Program-made: the position numbers and the translations under genes | From: Nitrospinota bacterium | GTDB lineage: Bacteria > Tectomicrobia > Entotheonellia > J063 | Direction: 5' to 3' | NCBI GenBank assembly: GCA_003696125.1 | Contig: RFHZ01000698.1 | Span: 1 to 7,171, forward strand | Length of the DNA: 7,171 nucleotides | Notes under the pieces: generated by a model | What the model was told of the DNA's origin: nothing | Seen by the model: the letters and a program-made list of their open reading frames with translations, nothing else | Database searches by the model: none | Part shown: positions 1-7,093 of the stretch, piece by piece | How the letters are laid out: every line of letters begins with the position of its first letter | How positions within the stretch are numbered: position 1 is the stretch's first letter

Positions 1-838
1 GGGTTGAGCAGTATCCGTGATCCGAGAGAACGAGGACATACGTATCTTCTGTCTGCTCCGCCTTGAGCTTACCCACCAGGTCATCCATGAGCCGGTAGGC
101 ATCAGGAACCGCTTCAACCAAAGCTGAGGCAGGGGGAGAAGAACCATCGGTGAGGGTCTGGTATTGCCAGGCCAGATGATGGATCCGATCAGGAAGGTTA
201 AAGACGACGATAAAAAGGTCCCAGGGTTTTGTCGTCATCAAGTAATGGGCCGCTTCAGCCCGTTTGCGTTCGATAGCCAGGTAAGCCTCGCATATCTTTT
301 GCTCACCACCGAAAAAGAAATCTCTCAATTTCGCCTGCTGGTTATAATCGATCTGGTAGGCAATGCCTTGAGCTGCAAGCTCCCTTTTGAGCTCCGGGGG
401 GTAGGTGTACTCGACTGTTTCGCTTGGTGCATCCATACCGGAGATCATAAACCCGTTGAGTGGGAAAGGAGGATAAGTGGGACAGACATTCACCAGCCCT
501 ACCCGGAGGGAAGAGTTCCTTAAGAGTTCAGGCAGAGAAGGAGCTTTAAGGGCCTGGTGGTTATAAAAGGTGAAACGCGAGGCATTGGTTGTGGCATAAG
601 GATGGCGCAGGAAGTGGTAAATTCCATGCTTTCCCGGATTTTTGCCGGTCAGAAAGGTGCTCCAGGCAGGAGGGGAAAGGGGAGGGATAACCGAGGTCAG
701 GATTCCACTGCTCCCCTCCTTCATCATGTGGGAGAGAACAGGTAACTCTCCCTTGACCTGCATGGCCTCAATGATATCGAGTGTCGCGCCATCAATGCCG
801 ATGACGAGTACTCTTTTCCGCTCTGTTCCTGTCTTCAT
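1..838 (-). CDS. AlkP-superfamily phosphohydrolase/phosphomutase (COG3379-like), 3' end cut by window edge
   Basis: Translated by hand from the minus strand: 279 residues are visible and the frame is still open at base 1. The N-terminus runs straight into a beta-strand and the first metal-ligand motif (VIGIDG, Asp16). The family's hallmark nucleophile region follows: PPAWSTFLTGKNPGKHG at about residues 57-72, with Ser60 or Thr61 as the likely nucleophile. Next come Asp217 and His221 (PDRIHH) and the SDHG motif (Asp273, His274). The last histidine ligand would lie beyond the window. Full-length relatives usually run to about 450-550 residues, so roughly half is seen. There is no signal peptide or membrane segment, so it is probably cytoplasmic. 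An in-frame stop lies shortly upstream and no other start codon intervenes, so the ATG is secure. It is the last visible gene of the run, 68 nt after the GNAT gene. Members hydrolyse or transfer phosphate-type esters; the substrate here is unknown. Confidence 0.85.
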   Translation of the reverse strand, partial: MKTGTERKRVLVIGIDGATLDIIEAMQVKGELPVLSHMMKEGSSGILTSVIPPLSPPAWSTFLTGKNPGKHGIYHFLRHPYATTNASRFTFYNHQALKAPSLPELLRNSSLRVGLVNVCPTYPPFPLNGFMISGMDAPSETVEYTYPPELKRELAAQGIAYQIDYNQQAKLRDFFFGGEQKICEAYLAIERKRAEAAHYLMTTKPWDLFIVVFNLPDRIHHLAWQYQTLTDGSSPPASALVEAVPDAYRLMDDLVGKLKAEQTEDTYVLVLSDHGYCST

Positions 839-906: not shown

Positions 907-1989
907 CTAATAGAAATCTGCATCCCCCATGGTAATGTACCAGTGCTCCGTCCTGGTGGCAAACGATGGGGAAACGGCCGGTTCCTGGGGGTTGACATTC
1001 CGGAAGATCAACTCTCGACCTTTGCCTGGCCGGGCGCGAAATCCCAGTGCCACCAGTTCTGGAAACACATGACTATGGGAAAACATCCAACAGGCAGCCA
1101 GGGCCATCCCTTTTTGATGAAAGTGGTTAAGCGCTTGTGCCAGGAGTGTCCGGGTGACTGTTGCGTTTTCCTCTCGGGGAGTCACAATATCGATAATCTG
1201 CCCTACAGGGAGATCCCGGTATCTCTCGTATAAGACGACAAAGCCGAGAACCGCCTCTGTTCGTATGTTCTCCAGAGCGATTATGGTATAGTGCAAGTGC
1301 GGAATGTCCACATATCTCCAATTAAGATATCGGCAATCCTTCACCGTCATGATCGGGTAATCTCCCTTGATGCGACTCCAGAAGGTATCAAAGCGCTCAT
1401 CAAAACGTTTTACCTCTCTCATTTGGGCTCCCGGCGGAACGGTGATCTTTGTCGGATAGAAGTGCCGGAGTACCGTATTCACCGGGAAAGCGAGAAGCCT
1501 GGAGAAGGCTCTCAGATGGAGCTTCCTCTGGAGAAAAGGTTCACTATTTAACACCTTGACCAGACGGGGGATTGGACCAACTCTTTGAAACCCCAGGGTT
1601 TTTTGGGCAATTTGGGAGGTGGCTTCAATAGCAAATCCATACTTAAAGGCGATCCCTTCTTTCTTATCGATTGCATTACGGAGTTCGGCCAGTCTATAAT
1701 AGACATCGAATCTCCTATGCCCTTTATCTATCAGCATATCAACCTCTTGAGCAGCCCTGAGCTCACTGCCCTCAACCAGGAATCGTATCGGGATGGCTCC
1801 TATCTGGCCGATCACTGTGCCATGGTGCACTGCCACAGCCGAGAGAGCCGTTCCTGCTGGATTCTGACGGTATTTCCACTGCCAAAAGCTTCTCTCCCTT
1901 GTTACACCCAGGATTTGATGAGACAGGTGAGAGAGAGTGGTATCGTCCGATTCCATGTACCGCCTGACTAGCAGAGATCTCTGTTGCAC
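907..1989 (-). CDS. GNAT-fold N-acyltransferase of polysaccharide-cluster type (two GNAT-like halves)
   Basis: 360 residues counted from the GTG at 1989. The N-terminal half has the VRRY strand, the FWQWKY...NPAG signature (about 35-46), a strand ending in VDML, and YGF...LGF...GPIPRLVKVLN (about 117-147). This pattern is typical of large GNAT proteins encoded in glycan biosynthesis and exosortase-type clusters. The second half opens with YLNWRY...P...Y (about 221-234), has a GNAT-like sheet and helix, and ends in WYITMGDADF, a recurring C-terminal signature. There is no signal peptide, so it should be cytoplasmic and may acylate an amino sugar or lipid-linked precursor; that role is inferred from context. 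The usual acyl-CoA loop (R/Q-x-x-G-x-G/A) is replaced by KGHRRFDVYYRL (89-100). A GTG at 2001 would add four residues but has no ribosome binding site, whereas the GTG at 1989 follows GGGGAGG. The gene ends in TAG. Confidence 0.75.
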   Translation of the reverse strand: MQQRSLLVRRYMESDDTTLSHLSHQILGVTRERSFWQWKYRQNPAGTALSAVAVHHGTVIGQIGAIPIRFLVEGSELRAAQEVDMLIDKGHRRFDVYYRLAELRNAIDKKEGIAFKYGFAIEATSQIAQKTLGFQRVGPIPRLVKVLNSEPFLQRKLHLRAFSRLLAFPVNTVLRHFYPTKITVPPGAQMREVKRFDERFDTFWSRIKGDYPIMTVKDCRYLNWRYVDIPHLHYTIIALENIRTEAVLGFVVLYERYRDLPVGQIIDIVTPREENATVTRTLLAQALNHFHQKGMALAACWMFSHSHVFPELVALGFRARPGKGRELIFRNVNPQEPAVSPSFATRTEHWYITMGDADFY

Positions 1990-1992
1990 TTT

Positions 1993-1999
1993 CCTCCCC
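1993..1999 (-). promoter_or_regulatory. Ribosome binding site that favours the GTG start at 1989
   Basis: GGGGAGG is followed by AAA and then GTG. This matches the short-spaced GGGGAG before two other genes here, and it overlaps the alternative upstream GTG at 2001. It therefore argues that translation begins at 1989. Confidence 0.45.
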
Positions 2000-2028
2000 A
2001 CGCACCATGCGATGAGAAAGCAGACCTC

Positions 2029-2074: not shown

Positions 2075-4162
2075 TCATGGAGAGTATGGATCATCGATTA
2101 CCTCAAAATAGATCTCCCAATTTCCATCTCGATCATCCTGCCATACGAGATAGACCTTGTTTCCATAAGCCAGATCCGGATGGGTCGAGTTCGAATCGTC
2201 ATGAGTTATCCTCATATCGGCAGACCAGGAGAGTCCATTGTCTGGGCTTGTCTTGTAGTATATCTCTTTATTACCATCACGATTGTCTTCCCAGGCCACA
2301 TAAAGCCTATCGGCTGTCTTCAAAATTGTGGGGAAGATGGCTCCTATTTTGCTGCTTGTAAGCACCTGGATCGATGGCATCTCCTTTTTCCTTCGATTAT
2401 TCCGGAGGAAACTGATCTCGCTATGACCTGTTCGGAAATCGCTCCAAACAAGATAGAGGTACTTCTCATCCACTGTGATAGCAGGGTGCAGGAGGTAGCT
2501 ATTTGAAGAAAGAAGAGGATGAGGTTCTCCCCATGTATCTCCACCGTTGAAACTAAAGTTGTACCAGATCTCCCATCCTTCAGTAGTAAACCTGTGAGCT
2601 GTCCATACAACCCAGAGGGAATTGGACCTCCCTAAAAAGGCATAGGAAGGGATAAACAATCCGTCGTAAATGATCTTATGGGTTCCCCAGGTAACACCGC
2701 CATCTTCACTCTTACTATATACGAGCGGACCTTTGTGATAGCGAACGGTAGCCCTGATATCTGTCTCTTCATTCACTTTAGGGAGCCCAGGAACGATCAT
2801 AGGGCTGCCTTTAAACAGGGAACTCTCAACATAAGAGCGGGCTACAAGCCTCGCAGGTGACCAGGTTTGTCCCGCATCTAAACTCTGTCTCAGATAAATA
2901 TCCCAGTTGTTGTTTCTATAATCTTTCCATATTACAGAGACTTTCTCCTGAAAGACGGAAATGGAAGGTTCAACTGCCAGGCCACTTGACCGACTAAGGT
3001 TAAAATCAGCGCTCCAAGAGCTTCCTCCGTCTTCACTCCTTTTATAATAGATTTGCCAGGTCCCTTCTCTGTTATCTTCCCAAACAAGATGGAGAATATC
3101 TCCTGAAGCAGCTATTTGGGGGGTTACAGATGCTCCTACCGCATAAGTAAGGCGGGTTCCAGGGGATAAGCCTGTATCCTGCCTGAAGTCATATCCGATA
3201 TCTGTGTGATTATCTGTAACGAACATCTCCGAGAGGACTCGTCCTTTTGCAAACGGTGTGGGAAATTGCAACATATATCCTACCGTCGGGGCAATATCCA
3301 CTAAACTTGCAGGCTCCCTAATCTCAACCCCTTTTCGAATCCCAGGTCCCACTGCAAGCAGGAAGCTCTGCTTACATCCTGGACAGATACCACCGTGCTT
3401 CAAGAATCCTCCGTGCAGCTCATCGTGGCGGCCATGATCCGTTGTGACGAGTAAAGCAGTCTTCCCCTGGTATTGAGGATGGTTTTCGAGATAGGTCCAC
3501 AGAGAGTAAATCAACCTATCCACTCGTCTAATCGCTGCCGTATACATCTCCCAGCTATGATGGCCTGCGTAATCTACATTTCCGAAGTTGATAAAGACCA
3601 GAGACGGTTCATAAGACTCTATGATACCTATCGTCTTTTCCCAAACCTGAACATCACTATCGCCAGCAGACTCCAGCGACGCCTGATACGTCGGCCCAAA
3701 CGCAGGGTTAAGACTGTAGTTCAGGGCACTCAGAAAAGAAATTTTCCCTCCCACAACGACCCATACCTTCTCTTGGGGAACTTGGTACGCCTTTCGATAA
3801 TATTCAAAGATGGTGGGGTAAATGGTTCGTACACGAACATTCTTATATTGAGGGGTATATACCCAGTTTCCTGTAACTATATACATATGGCCGGGGGCCG
3901 TGTTTGTGTCTCCCAGATTCCAGACGTCTGTGTACAAAGTACCGTTCGGTTTCAGAATGTTCCCCAGATGGGGAATGTATCGGTATGAACTGTCACCAAA
4001 GGCTTCCGAGTATCGCAGACCGTCTATGACAACCACAAAAACCTTTTCAATCGATCCGGTTTGTGAATACCCTGGGTTGCTGAAAGAAAGTATTACTCCT
4101 ATAGTAATTAGCCCCAGAAGGGGATACAATTCGAAATTACCTCTGATACCCTTTGTCTGCAT
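2075..4162 (-). CDS. Exported alkaline-phosphatase-superfamily hydrolase fused to a BNR/Asp-box beta-propeller
   Basis: 695 residues. A hydrophobic stretch at about 13-28, ending near GYSQ (31-34), is a signal peptide or N-terminal anchor. Residues about 38-315 form an AlkP-superfamily domain. Asp47 lies in VVIDG, the nucleophile is probably Thr88 in DTNTAPGH (cf. T-x-P-x-H in nucleotide pyrophosphatase/PafA-type enzymes), then come Asp197 and His201 (NVDYAGHH), Asp242-His243 (TTDHG) and His256. All expected metal ligands are present, so it should be active. Cys260 and Cys263 follow the last ligand. Residues about 340-690 carry seven W-x-D-x-R...IYY/Asp-box units, giving a sialidase-like propeller. 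The AlkP fold could act on a phosphodiester, phosphomonoester or sulfate, and the propeller could bind a glycan. It lies 35 nt after the glycoside hydrolase gene, which suggests both exported proteins work on the same polymer. The substrate is not predictable from sequence. Confidence 0.85.
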   Translation of the reverse strand: MQTKGIRGNFELYPLLGLITIGVILSFSNPGYSQTGSIEKVFVVVIDGLRYSEAFGDSSYRYIPHLGNILKPNGTLYTDVWNLGDTNTAPGHMYIVTGNWVYTPQYKNVRVRTIYPTIFEYYRKAYQVPQEKVWVVVGGKISFLSALNYSLNPAFGPTYQASLESAGDSDVQVWEKTIGIIESYEPSLVFINFGNVDYAGHHSWEMYTAAIRRVDRLIYSLWTYLENHPQYQGKTALLVTTDHGRHDELHGGFLKHGGICPGCKQSFLLAVGPGIRKGVEIREPASLVDIAPTVGYMLQFPTPFAKGRVLSEMFVTDNHTDIGYDFRQDTGLSPGTRLTYAVGASVTPQIAASGDILHLVWEDNREGTWQIYYKRSEDGGSSWSADFNLSRSSGLAVEPSISVFQEKVSVIWKDYRNNNWDIYLRQSLDAGQTWSPARLVARSYVESSLFKGSPMIVPGLPKVNEETDIRATVRYHKGPLVYSKSEDGGVTWGTHKIIYDGLFIPSYAFLGRSNSLWVVWTAHRFTTEGWEIWYNFSFNGGDTWGEPHPLLSSNSYLLHPAITVDEKYLYLVWSDFRTGHSEISFLRNNRRKKEMPSIQVLTSSKIGAIFPTILKTADRLYVAWEDNRDGNKEIYYKTSPDNGLSWSADMRITHDDSNSTHPDLAYGNKVYLVWQDDRDGNWEIYFEVIDDPYSP
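2093..3145 (-). repeat. Seven degenerate beta-propeller units within the AlkP fusion protein
   Basis: These protein-level repeats cover residues about 340-690. Each unit typically has a hydrophobic-W-x-D-x-R strand, an IYY strand and an Asp-box (S-x-D-G-G-x-x-W). Key tryptophans are W361, W412, W520, W573, W624 and W674. Asp-boxes are at 376-383, 427-434, 485-492, 537-544 and 639-646. Unit 3 keeps the Asp-box but not the W-x-D-x-R part. Unit 5 keeps W-S-D-F-R but has lost the Asp-box, and unit 7 ends the protein without one. Units 1 and 6 are the most alike. Confidence 0.75.
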
Positions 4163-4197: not shown

Positions 4198-5598
4198 TTA
4201 CATGAGCTCTTCAAGAAAAACAGGGGAAGAAATTGTCAAATCCACTCTCCCATTTTTCACTTCTATTCTTTCTACCTTAGGGTTGGTCTGCTCCTTGTTG
4301 GTAATAATGTGAGTAAGCATTACATCTCTGGCAGTAGTAGAGAAGGAATATGTATGCGTTCCAGACTCACTCCAGAACACATATATCGTTTGGCCAGATT
4401 TCTTTTTAGCTTGATAAGCCGAGATTCCTATCGGTGCTGATATCCGTGCTATGGATTCCAATCCGTGTAGCTTGTGGGTCATAAGTTTATATGTATAATA
4501 GGCAGCCGATTTGTTTCCATACTGGTCGATTAAGGCTAACCGGACGTAATTGTCCGACCAGAGAAGGGTCGGTTTCAGCGAACTCCAAAACAGGCGCCCC
4601 AATCCGTTACTGAACCCTATGACATGCCTCCGTACCACATCTATGGCGAAGCGTTCCTCAGAAAAATTAAAGAAGGGGCCCGCATTCTCCAGAGACCAGA
4701 TCTCCTTGGAGTATCCATATTCCCGCATCTTCTTCTGAAGCCACTTCAGAACTATTGCGATATCATAAGGATCCTCTGTATAGGAATGGAAATCGATGAT
4801 ATCGAAATATCGACTTCCTTCTCTCAGCATCAACTCTATCTTTCTCTTCCCTTCCCTGTATTCTCTGGTTTTAATATATTGAGAGACATACACCTTCCTT
4901 TTGCCTTTATCAGTACCCCCAACGGTGATATAGTCTTTGTTTCCGACACCCTCGGCAACGGCCATGGGAAGTCCTCCGATGGCACCAGCAATCACTCTGG
5001 CCTCCGGATCAGCCCTTTTGATGGCCGACGAGGTTTTCTGCAAAAAGGTGAGATACGCTTCTGGAGTATCGACCCATTGCCATAGCCATTCATTCTCTAC
5101 CTGCCAGAATTTTATCGGTCTGCGTAACCCGGGCATGTCGTGAAAACCGTCTCCATCATACCGCTCAACGATAGCCTCGACCATCTTTAACCACGCATCC
5201 ATTCTGCGCGGGTAGCCACTTTTGGGCGCTTTGCGGGTCTGCTCCTTTATTCTCTTCCCCCCCCACCGGCTGAGAGGACGCAGCGTAACAACCAGATTTA
5301 TTCCATAATCCTGGGCCTTTCTGACTATACCATCCCCCTTCTGAAAACGGTATCGTCCCGGTCGCGGTTCTACGTTCTGCCAGCGGACAATGGCCCGCAC
5401 GTATTCGACCCCCAAATTTCTGACTTCCTCAAACTCCCCCTGTACGTTATGCAGACCAAAAGGGGAACTCTGGAACACCATGGGTTCAGATGACTCCTGG
5501 GCACTTTCGCTGACAGGCGTCTGCCCCATTCCCTGTCCAGGATAAAGCGTAAGCAGGCACAGGATCAAGATCAAGAAAAGACCTCTTAAATCTCTCAT
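4198..5598 (-). CDS. Exported clan GH-A glycoside hydrolase, GH39/PslG-like
   Basis: 466 residues. Hydrophobic residues 6-19 form a signal peptide, with cleavage probably near 25; Cys14 is not in a proper lipobox. The mature protein begins with SPFGLH (45-50), then LGVEYVR and W-x-x-V-E-P-x-x-G-x-Y (73-83), the usual opening of GH39/GH5-like (beta/alpha)8 barrels. The acid/base is probably Glu170 in WQVENEW (the Asn-Glu pair after strand 4), the nucleophile Glu304 in IWSLENAGP, and His271 in DFHSY lies near the site. Residues about 385-466 look like a C-terminal beta-sandwich. Length and layout recall PslG, the endoglycosidase encoded in the Pseudomonas psl exopolysaccharide operon. It probably cleaves or trims the glycan made by this locus (inference). 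A lysine/arginine-rich stretch lies at about 221-256. An AGGGAG site 8 nt upstream supports the ATG. An 8-G run lies at codons 112-114. Confidence 0.82.
   Translation of the reverse strand: MRDLRGLFLILILCLLTLYPGQGMGQTPVSESAQESSEPMVFQSSPFGLHNVQGEFEEVRNLGVEYVRAIVRWQNVEPRPGRYRFQKGDGIVRKAQDYGINLVVTLRPLSRWGGKRIKEQTRKAPKSGYPRRMDAWLKMVEAIVERYDGDGFHDMPGLRRPIKFWQVENEWLWQWVDTPEAYLTFLQKTSSAIKRADPEARVIAGAIGGLPMAVAEGVGNKDYITVGGTDKGKRKVYVSQYIKTREYREGKRKIELMLREGSRYFDIIDFHSYTEDPYDIAIVLKWLQKKMREYGYSKEIWSLENAGPFFNFSEERFAIDVVRRHVIGFSNGLGRLFWSSLKPTLLWSDNYVRLALIDQYGNKSAAYYTYKLMTHKLHGLESIARISAPIGISAYQAKKKSGQTIYVFWSESGTHTYSFSTTARDVMLTHIITNKEQTNPKVERIEVKNGRVDLTISSPVFLEELM
5257..5264 (-). repeat. 8-G homopolymer inside the glycoside hydrolase gene
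   Basis: Eight G residues on the coding strand encode part of Trp112-Gly113-Gly114. The frame is intact at eight. By hand translation, loss of one G gives a stop after only four more codons, and gain of one G gives a longer out-of-frame stretch before a stop. The tract is a potential slippage or sequencing-error site. Confidence 0.7.
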
Positions 5599-5692: not shown

Positions 5693-7093
5693 TCACCCCA
5701 CCATCTCCTCCTGAGGAAGGGACCTTCTCTGCTGGCTAAGATTTTCTAAAATCACGGCAAAAGCGATGCTTATCCACCCGATCTCATGTTCAAGAGCAGG
5801 GATAACTCCAATACAGATAACATAGATCACAAAGCTCGTGAAAATGGCAATACGAAATCCCCTCATCTCTCTATCATCCCCCTCTCGCGACCGATACAGG
5901 GCAAGGGGAACAGAAAGGAGGAAGAGCAGGAAGATGATGAGGCCAACGGTCCCGTTTTCCGCCCAAATCTGCATCACTCCATTGTGAATGATAATCGGAA
6001 CTCGAGGGACCATATCGGGCACGGTCCGAATATACCGATGGTATTCGGAGTAGAAATTCCCGGTGCCAACCCCGAACACGGGATGTCGTTTCACCATCTC
6101 CCAGGCCATGATTATCCAACCCAGGCGATACTCTAACGACTTCAATCCACTCTCCCCGGTGTAGCGCTCTGCCGTAAACTTCTCCGGCATGAAGGAGAAG
6201 AGTCCAAACAGCACCAGTAGAACGGCAAAAGCAGCCATGAGCTTTGGAATCTTCCAGCGCACCTCACTTAAGAGAAAGACAAGGGAAAAAGCCACCACCA
6301 TCCCTAAAAGTCCCAGGCGGGCATTGGTACCCAGGATATTAACACAATACAGTACCAGCAAGATATAGAGCGCTATCTTCGGATACCGATTCTGCACCAA
6401 CTGGATTTGAGTCAGCAGGAAGGGTAAAAGCATGACTAAGATGGCGGCATGGAAGTCTGGATTTCCGGCACACCCCTGGATACGACTTGCCCCACCGCTG
6501 GTAATATACAACTCTTCTCTCCGCTGGGATTTCGGCAAGACTTGATCCCCTGTTCCCAACTCATAGAGTCCTACCAAAGTAATAAAAAAACTGGCCAACA
6601 GCAATAGCTGAATGCTTCTCCTCAACAAGGTCTTGGAGCGAATGAGATTGAGGAGGAAGAAATAGAAAACGATTACGTTTATTCTCCTCACCAGCACCTC
6701 CACAACCCTTTCCAGGTCTCTCGCCTGGACAGCGGTAAGGATCGAGACCAGCAGATAGCAGAGGATCAGGATACTGGTTCGGGAATTATAAAGCGATTCC
6801 AGGGGAAAGGGGTCTTTGGTGAGGATAGCCCGGACAAGCCATATCAGCAGGGTGAGGCCGATAAACACCTTGGAAACAGTTAACCCCAGCCCCTTGAGGA
6901 TAAGAAAACACCGGTCAAAAGGGATGGTAAAGAAGGTCATTAGCAAGCCAAATTCCAGCGATTGCCCGATAAGGAGGGTTAGGAGAGCGACGACGAACAG
7001 CAGGCTTCCCAACACCGGATTAACCGAATACAGGAGGCTCCCGATGAAGAGAAAAAACAAAACAGAGAGGAGGAAAAGGGACGTTATCATCAT
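5693..7093 (-). CDS. O-antigen ligase / polysaccharide polymerase family membrane protein (Wzy_C/WaaL-like)
   Basis: 466 residues with about 12 hydrophobic segments. A large soluble loop lies between about residues 303 and 372. The arrangement matches the Wzy_C (PF04932) family: an Arg in a TNARLGLLG segment (Arg259), then W-x-M-x-x-x-HPVFGVGTGNF in the loop (331-347), then IIHNGVMQIWAENGTVG (His370, Glu379, Gly381) leading into the next membrane helix. In this family the loop faces the periplasm or cell exterior and helps transfer lipid-linked glycan either to another glycan (polymerase) or to an acceptor (ligase). Sequence alone does not tell which. An in-frame stop lies just upstream and leaves ATG 7093, or the adjacent second ATG, as the start. 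There is no good ribosome binding site, but the ATG overlaps an upstream TGA as ATGA, consistent with translational coupling. The gene ends in TGA. Confidence 0.88.
   Translation of the reverse strand: MMITSLFLLSVLFFLFIGSLLYSVNPVLGSLLFVVALLTLLIGQSLEFGLLMTFFTIPFDRCFLILKGLGLTVSKVFIGLTLLIWLVRAILTKDPFPLESLYNSRTSILILCYLLVSILTAVQARDLERVVEVLVRRINVIVFYFFLLNLIRSKTLLRRSIQLLLLASFFITLVGLYELGTGDQVLPKSQRREELYITSGGASRIQGCAGNPDFHAAILVMLLPFLLTQIQLVQNRYPKIALYILLVLYCVNILGTNARLGLLGMVVAFSLVFLLSEVRWKIPKLMAAFAVLLVLFGLFSFMPEKFTAERYTGESGLKSLEYRLGWIIMAWEMVKRHPVFGVGTGNFYSEYHRYIRTVPDMVPRVPIIIHNGVMQIWAENGTVGLIIFLLFLLSVPLALYRSREGDDREMRGFRIAIFTSFVIYVICIGVIPALEHEIGWISIAFAVILENLSQQRRSLPQEEMVG

Follow-up and report, generated by a model that had tools for sequence, protein, structure and literature searches.

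A recurrent, uncharacterised protein family joins an AlkP-superfamily domain to a predicted seven-bladed propeller

Gene, domain layout and neighbourhood

The window, i.e. the whole stretch of DNA that was analysed (7,171 nucleotides), carries a gene for an AlkP-propeller fusion protein and four co-directional neighbours, separated by gaps of 35–94 bases. The following features were assigned, with the evidence given in parentheses:

2075..4162, minus strand: AlkP-propeller fusion protein, 695 aa (open reading frame, Pfam, full-length relative L004, co-linear relatives)
4061..4162, minus strand: signal-peptide-like N-terminal segment, residues 1–34, without a lipobox Cys (sequence inspection)
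3221..4048, minus strand: AlkP-superfamily domain, residues 39–314 (PF01663 and PF01676, family profile boundaries, fold matches of a low-confidence model)
3887..3907, minus strand: nucleophile loop T86-x-T88-A-P-G-H92 (conservation in 33 relatives, SPAP spacing)
3371..3439, minus strand: hallmark DHGR(242–245) ... H256-G ... C260-x-G-C263-K (conservation in 33 relatives)
2090..3163, minus strand: seven-unit propeller, residues about 334–691 (PF13088, Asp-box statistics, model, structure comparison)
5693..7093, minus strand: O-antigen ligase/polymerase family membrane protein (PF04932, 81.9 bits; TIGR03097 below cut-off)
4198..5598, minus strand: signal-bearing glycoside-hydrolase-like protein, 466 aa (weak GH42/GH35 matches)
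907..2001, minus strand: GNAT-type acyltransferase (PF13527, 30.1 bits)
2..838, minus strand: second PF01663 protein, without a signal peptide and truncated by the contig end (PF01663, 106.3 bits)

The N-terminal segment of the fusion protein has a basic start, hydrophobic residues at positions 13–27 and a GYSQ end on inspection, and is the single hydrophobic segment seen at the N-terminus of the protein, which is presumably exported. Pfam assigned PF01663 (Type I phosphodiesterase) to residues 41–246 (43.7 bits, cut-off 23), PF01676 (Metalloenzyme) to residues 41–296 and BNR_2 (PF13088) to the C-terminal half (51.2 bits, cut-off 31.4). The initial annotation had described an exported-looking AlkP domain and an Asp-box propeller in one polypeptide, an arrangement borne out by the open reading frame, the Pfam matches, the repeats and the structure model. 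In the open-access literature, nothing to the point was found on the AlkP-propeller architecture.

The neighbourhood fits a polysaccharide locus, as judged from sequence. The protein encoded at 4198–5598 (minus strand) has an N-terminal hydrophobic segment and the NE-type motifs WQVENEW and WSLENAG; it could belong to the GH-A clan as an enzyme of such a locus and is reminiscent of PslG. The neighbourhoods of relatives, read by eye, did not obviously contain the same set of polysaccharide genes. The polysaccharide context may therefore be particular to the window genome, and it is weak evidence on the general function of the family.

Active site of the AlkP domain

D47, T88, D197, H201, D242, H243 and H256 were all located at the residue numbers originally assigned to them. 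They follow the order typical of the AlkP superfamily (Asp, nucleophile, Asp-x-x-x-His, Asp-His, third His), and their presence and conservation in relatives agree with the earlier view that the domain is apparently catalytically complete. Twelve residues (D47, G48, R50, N82, T86, T88, D197, D242, H243, G244, R245 and H256) were invariant in 33/33 relatives, and the positions of H201 and C263 were occupied by His and Cys, respectively, in 31 of the 33. The AlkP profile of the family could be aligned to iPGM, NPP and sulfatase chains of the PDB.

The metal ligands of SPAP are Asp300, His304 and His491 for one site and Asp49, Thr89, Asp345 and His346 for the other (PMC3145672), and the predicted ligands of the fusion protein match them in order and kind. 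The spacing of T88 and H92, with a His four residues past the Thr, equals that of Thr89 and His93 in SPAP (PMC3145672). The SPAP signature comprises Thr89, Asn110, Lys171 and Arg173, of which Lys171 and Arg173 are also needed for the monoester signature (PMC3145672). In the fusion protein, no clear counterpart of Asn110 emerged, whereas K140, the Lys of a G-K position that many relatives conserve, might take the place of Lys171. It is followed two residues on by a Ser, without an Arg at +2, and we therefore do not choose between a monoesterase and a diesterase.

In common with SPAP/PhoK (3q3q, 5xwi) and PafA (5tj3), the fusion protein has a Thr nucleophile, the seven metal-site residues and a His at Thr+4. 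Unlike these enzymes, it has a compact AlkP domain with 109 residues between T88 and D197, places H256 only 13 residues past H243, lacks an Arg at Lys140+2 and carries a propeller. XacNPP (2gsn) shares with it the PF01663-type core, the DGxR start and aligned D-x-x-x-H and DHG motifs, but has a Met past DHG, where the fusion protein has R245, and no propeller. The third His of NPP presumably lies far downstream, in contrast to its close position in the fusion protein.

Two other assignments were considered and rejected. An S1 sulfatase is at odds with the nucleophile region, which reads TAPGH instead of the formylglycine motif Cys/Ser-x-Pro/Ala-x-Arg. The sulfo-group transfer allowed for in the initial annotation is unlikely for the same reason, since the nucleophile is a Thr. 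An iPGM/phosphopentomutase was discarded at 29.1 bits against a curated cut-off of 330.65, with a match to the C-terminal half of the family model only.

Structure prediction gave low confidence for this part of the protein. The AlkP region was poorly modelled in the first model (ten sequences), and the domain modelled alone (two sequences) reached a mean pLDDT of 50 and a pTM of 0.58. Viral contigs were scanned for AlkP relatives and yielded none, so that the alignment stayed at two sequences; the neighbouring AlkP protein was left out, as its addition misaligned the motifs. The isolated model, although of low confidence, matched chains of the AlkP superfamily (at best with Z 14.8 and an rmsd of 5.1 over 255 aligned residues), with YejM, GacH, NPP, PafA and sulfatases at Z 13.5–14.8. 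These matches support the predicted fold and not any particular subfamily.

The propeller

Five Asp boxes of the SxDxGxTW type were found in the propeller (shuffled sequences: average 0.004, maximum 1), together with five WxDxR motifs (average 0.11, maximum 3). Chance repeats in the C-terminal half were ruled out by the Asp-box shuffles. TIGR04275 (beta_prop_Msarc) scored 64.6 bits, under its curated cut-off of 85.

Seven repeat units were laid out by eye, and the strands of the predicted model fit seven blades. The first model (ten sequences) had a pLDDT of mostly 80–93 in this region, with weaker values in blades 3 and 4. Structure prediction had been proposed earlier as a check on the propeller, and the predicted structure does contain one, seven-bladed and of mostly good confidence. 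Sialidases filled the top rows of a Foldseek search with the propeller model. A second aligner, applied to the same candidates, ranked seven-bladed proteins first: CylK (7roo, 7fh7; Z 34.6–35.1, with an rmsd of 3.1 over 347 aligned residues at Z 35.1), an alkylating enzyme that lacks an AlkP domain, gave the best match, and was followed by the PLL/PHL lectins at about Z 28–29 (PLL4: Z 28.9, rmsd 2.7, 304 aligned), a rhamnose-glucuronate lyase (Z 28.1), BT3686-type glycoside hydrolases (Z about 27.5), an ulvan lyase (Z 26.9) and sialidases (Z about 23–24). S9 peptidase and integrin propellers were also among the fold matches. On account of the seven repeat units and the ranking by the second aligner, the propeller is assigned as seven-bladed in the predicted model.

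The label 'sialidase-like' given in the initial annotation needs correcting. GH33 sialidases share the Asp boxes and the Foldseek top rows with the fusion protein, but the latter has seven units instead of six blades, and its Z-scores to sialidases are lower than those to seven-bladed lectins and enzymes. The sialidase FRIP motif is absent from the fusion protein; with this and the seven units, sialidase activity was rejected. The Photorhabdus PLL/PHL lectins (5c9o, 5mxg, 8q82) resemble the modelled propeller in their seven blades over about 305 residues, at an identity of 10–12%, and differ from it in not being fused to an enzyme. Retention of the enzyme on a glycan by its propeller is plausible, given the match to the seven-bladed lectin fold and the polysaccharide-type neighbourhood, fold likeness alone being no proof of sugar binding.

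Relatives and spread of the fusion

A scan of named genomes revealed one relative that matches along its full length (L004, from a WOR-3 bacterium; 31% identity across residues 29–689), whose longer C-terminus carries Kelch repeats and a Por secretion tail. Elsewhere, the scan picked up many propellers with the repeat type of the fusion protein. Searches with an AlkP-domain profile gave matches in 9/147 genomes of the WOR-3 phylum. Seven of its genomes contained intact AlkP-propeller reading frames, encoding nine proteins (L004, L048, L049, L050, L051, L052, L054, L056 and L057). A further match, L055, was truncated by a contig end; in L053, the AlkP reading frame ended early and a propeller blade went on in another frame, a break that probably reflects a frameshift or an assembly error. 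One WOR-3 phylum genome contained two AlkP-propeller genes in tandem (L083, 5959–10750).

The phylum of the Ignavibacteria genome had matches in 28/395 sampled genomes. Among those read, L065 was the one clear full-length fusion, and the others comprised 304–565 aa, some with a C-terminal tail. BLAST alignments with the fusion protein ran through the propeller in most close relatives (669 columns for L065, 728 for L048). Six of 132 Zixibacteria phylum genomes matched, including one (G280) with two longer fusions of 685–688 aa. In the phylum of a deltaproteobacterial record (G009), 17/282 genomes matched, with frames of mostly about 650–1400 aa. As a group, the C-terminal parts of the latter matched the propeller of the close fusions in a profile comparison (probability 95.4%, E 1.7e-8, 289 columns; control with the AlkP alignment, 0.2%), and in single members Pfam recognised BNR_2 weakly or not at all. 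Co-linear relatives were thus found in seven WOR-3 phylum genomes and one Ignavibacteria-phylum member, and divergent AlkP-propeller proteins in two further phylum samples. The fusion protein belongs to a recurrent AlkP-propeller family that is uncharacterised; the rarity implied earlier does not hold, as several phyla contain related fusions.

In the phylum of the window itself (five genomes), close members were confined to the window genome, namely the fusion gene and a paralogous AlkP domain of the same family (contig C763; L080, 3–1421, minus strand). The latter is cut by the contig end and so may also carry a propeller. In the sampled phyla of G008 and G012, nothing matched at 1e-35, a result that shows little. 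In L108 (708-aa frame), the same AlkP domain is joined to a different, long C-terminus that does not look like a propeller on inspection. In the Ignavibacteria genome G007 (L007 and other contigs), 72 matches to propeller units with the repeat type of the fusion protein were recorded.

Fused proteins were clustered in the AlkP-domain tree (4 changes, compared with a mean of 11 for shuffled labels), and a single clade of all close fusion proteins gave an AU p-value of 0.057. Many AlkP relatives have no propeller, which is therefore not needed for the chemistry.

Proposed function and alternatives

Our leading, tentative reading, to which we give a little under an even chance, is an exported two-metal phosphoester hydrolase docked by its propeller on a polymer, probably a glycan. 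D197, H201 and H256 would bind one metal, D47, T88, D242 and H243 the second, and Thr88 would attack the phosphorus. The propeller would serve as a docking module, keeping the enzyme near its substrate on a polymer that is either secreted or at the surface. In the window genome, this substrate would probably be a phosphomonoester or phosphodiester, attached to the polysaccharide on which the neighbouring genes act or located close to it. Export, metal binding, phosphate rather than sulfate chemistry, glycan docking and the substrate are all points that we infer. If the proposal is correct, phyla that are known chiefly through metagenomes contain a recurrent secreted family that combines phosphoester chemistry with a lectin-like docking module, providing a handle on the making or breakdown of phosphorylated surface or extracellular polymers in these organisms.

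Part of the evidence could also be read in terms of phosphorus scavenging, with an exoenzyme whose AlkP domain acts on extracellular organic phosphate to free phosphate and whose propeller only anchors it to the surface or matrix, with no role in substrate choice. Secreted-looking AlkP relatives without a propeller, many of them Por-tailed, occur in the Ignavibacteria phylum sample, the variable gene neighbourhoods fit a general enzyme, and K140, at its widely conserved position, could replace Lys171 of SPAP. We nevertheless consider scavenging rather unlikely: the SPAP signature (PMC3145672) is not evidently complete, with a Ser at K140+2, and the genes around the fusion gene are of the polysaccharide type rather than phosphate genes. 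Similarly improbable in our estimate is a propeller that acts as a protein-protein or structural module of a surface complex and binds no glycan, in which case the hydrolase proposal may still hold for the AlkP chemistry. Such a role is in keeping with the abundance, in several genomes, of propellers that share this repeat type (G007 alone had 72 matches) and with the S9 peptidase and integrin propellers among the fold matches; against it, seven-bladed lectins and glycan enzymes come next after CylK in the ranking of fold matches.

A transferase that moves a phospho-substituent (phosphoglycerol or phosphoethanolamine) onto an exported polysaccharide, like GacH or LtaS, would suit the adjoining O-antigen ligase/polymerase gene, and alignments of the low-confidence AlkP model were obtained both with GacH (Z 14.8 and an rmsd of 4.3 over 239 aligned residues) and with LtaS-type domains. 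The Z-scores of GacH, NPP, PafA and sulfatases are, however, tied or nearly so, and the match to GacH consequently does not discriminate. Known transferases of the GacH/LtaS kind are PF00884 proteins with several membrane segments, whereas the fusion protein is a PF01663/PF01676 protein with a single N-terminal hydrophobic segment. We regard this activity as very unlikely.

A broader and distinctly speculative extension of the docked-hydrolase proposal, which we hold to be unlikely as a whole, is that the AlkP domain represents a compact, widespread and undescribed AlkP subfamily (DHGR ... HG-x(2-4)-CxGCR, without a large cap), whose propeller-fused branch would edit the phosphate substituents of exported polysaccharides and, at the same time, be docked on the polymer that it edits. 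Next to the predicted metal site, the conserved DHGR/CxGC loop offers a concrete, testable active-site variant.
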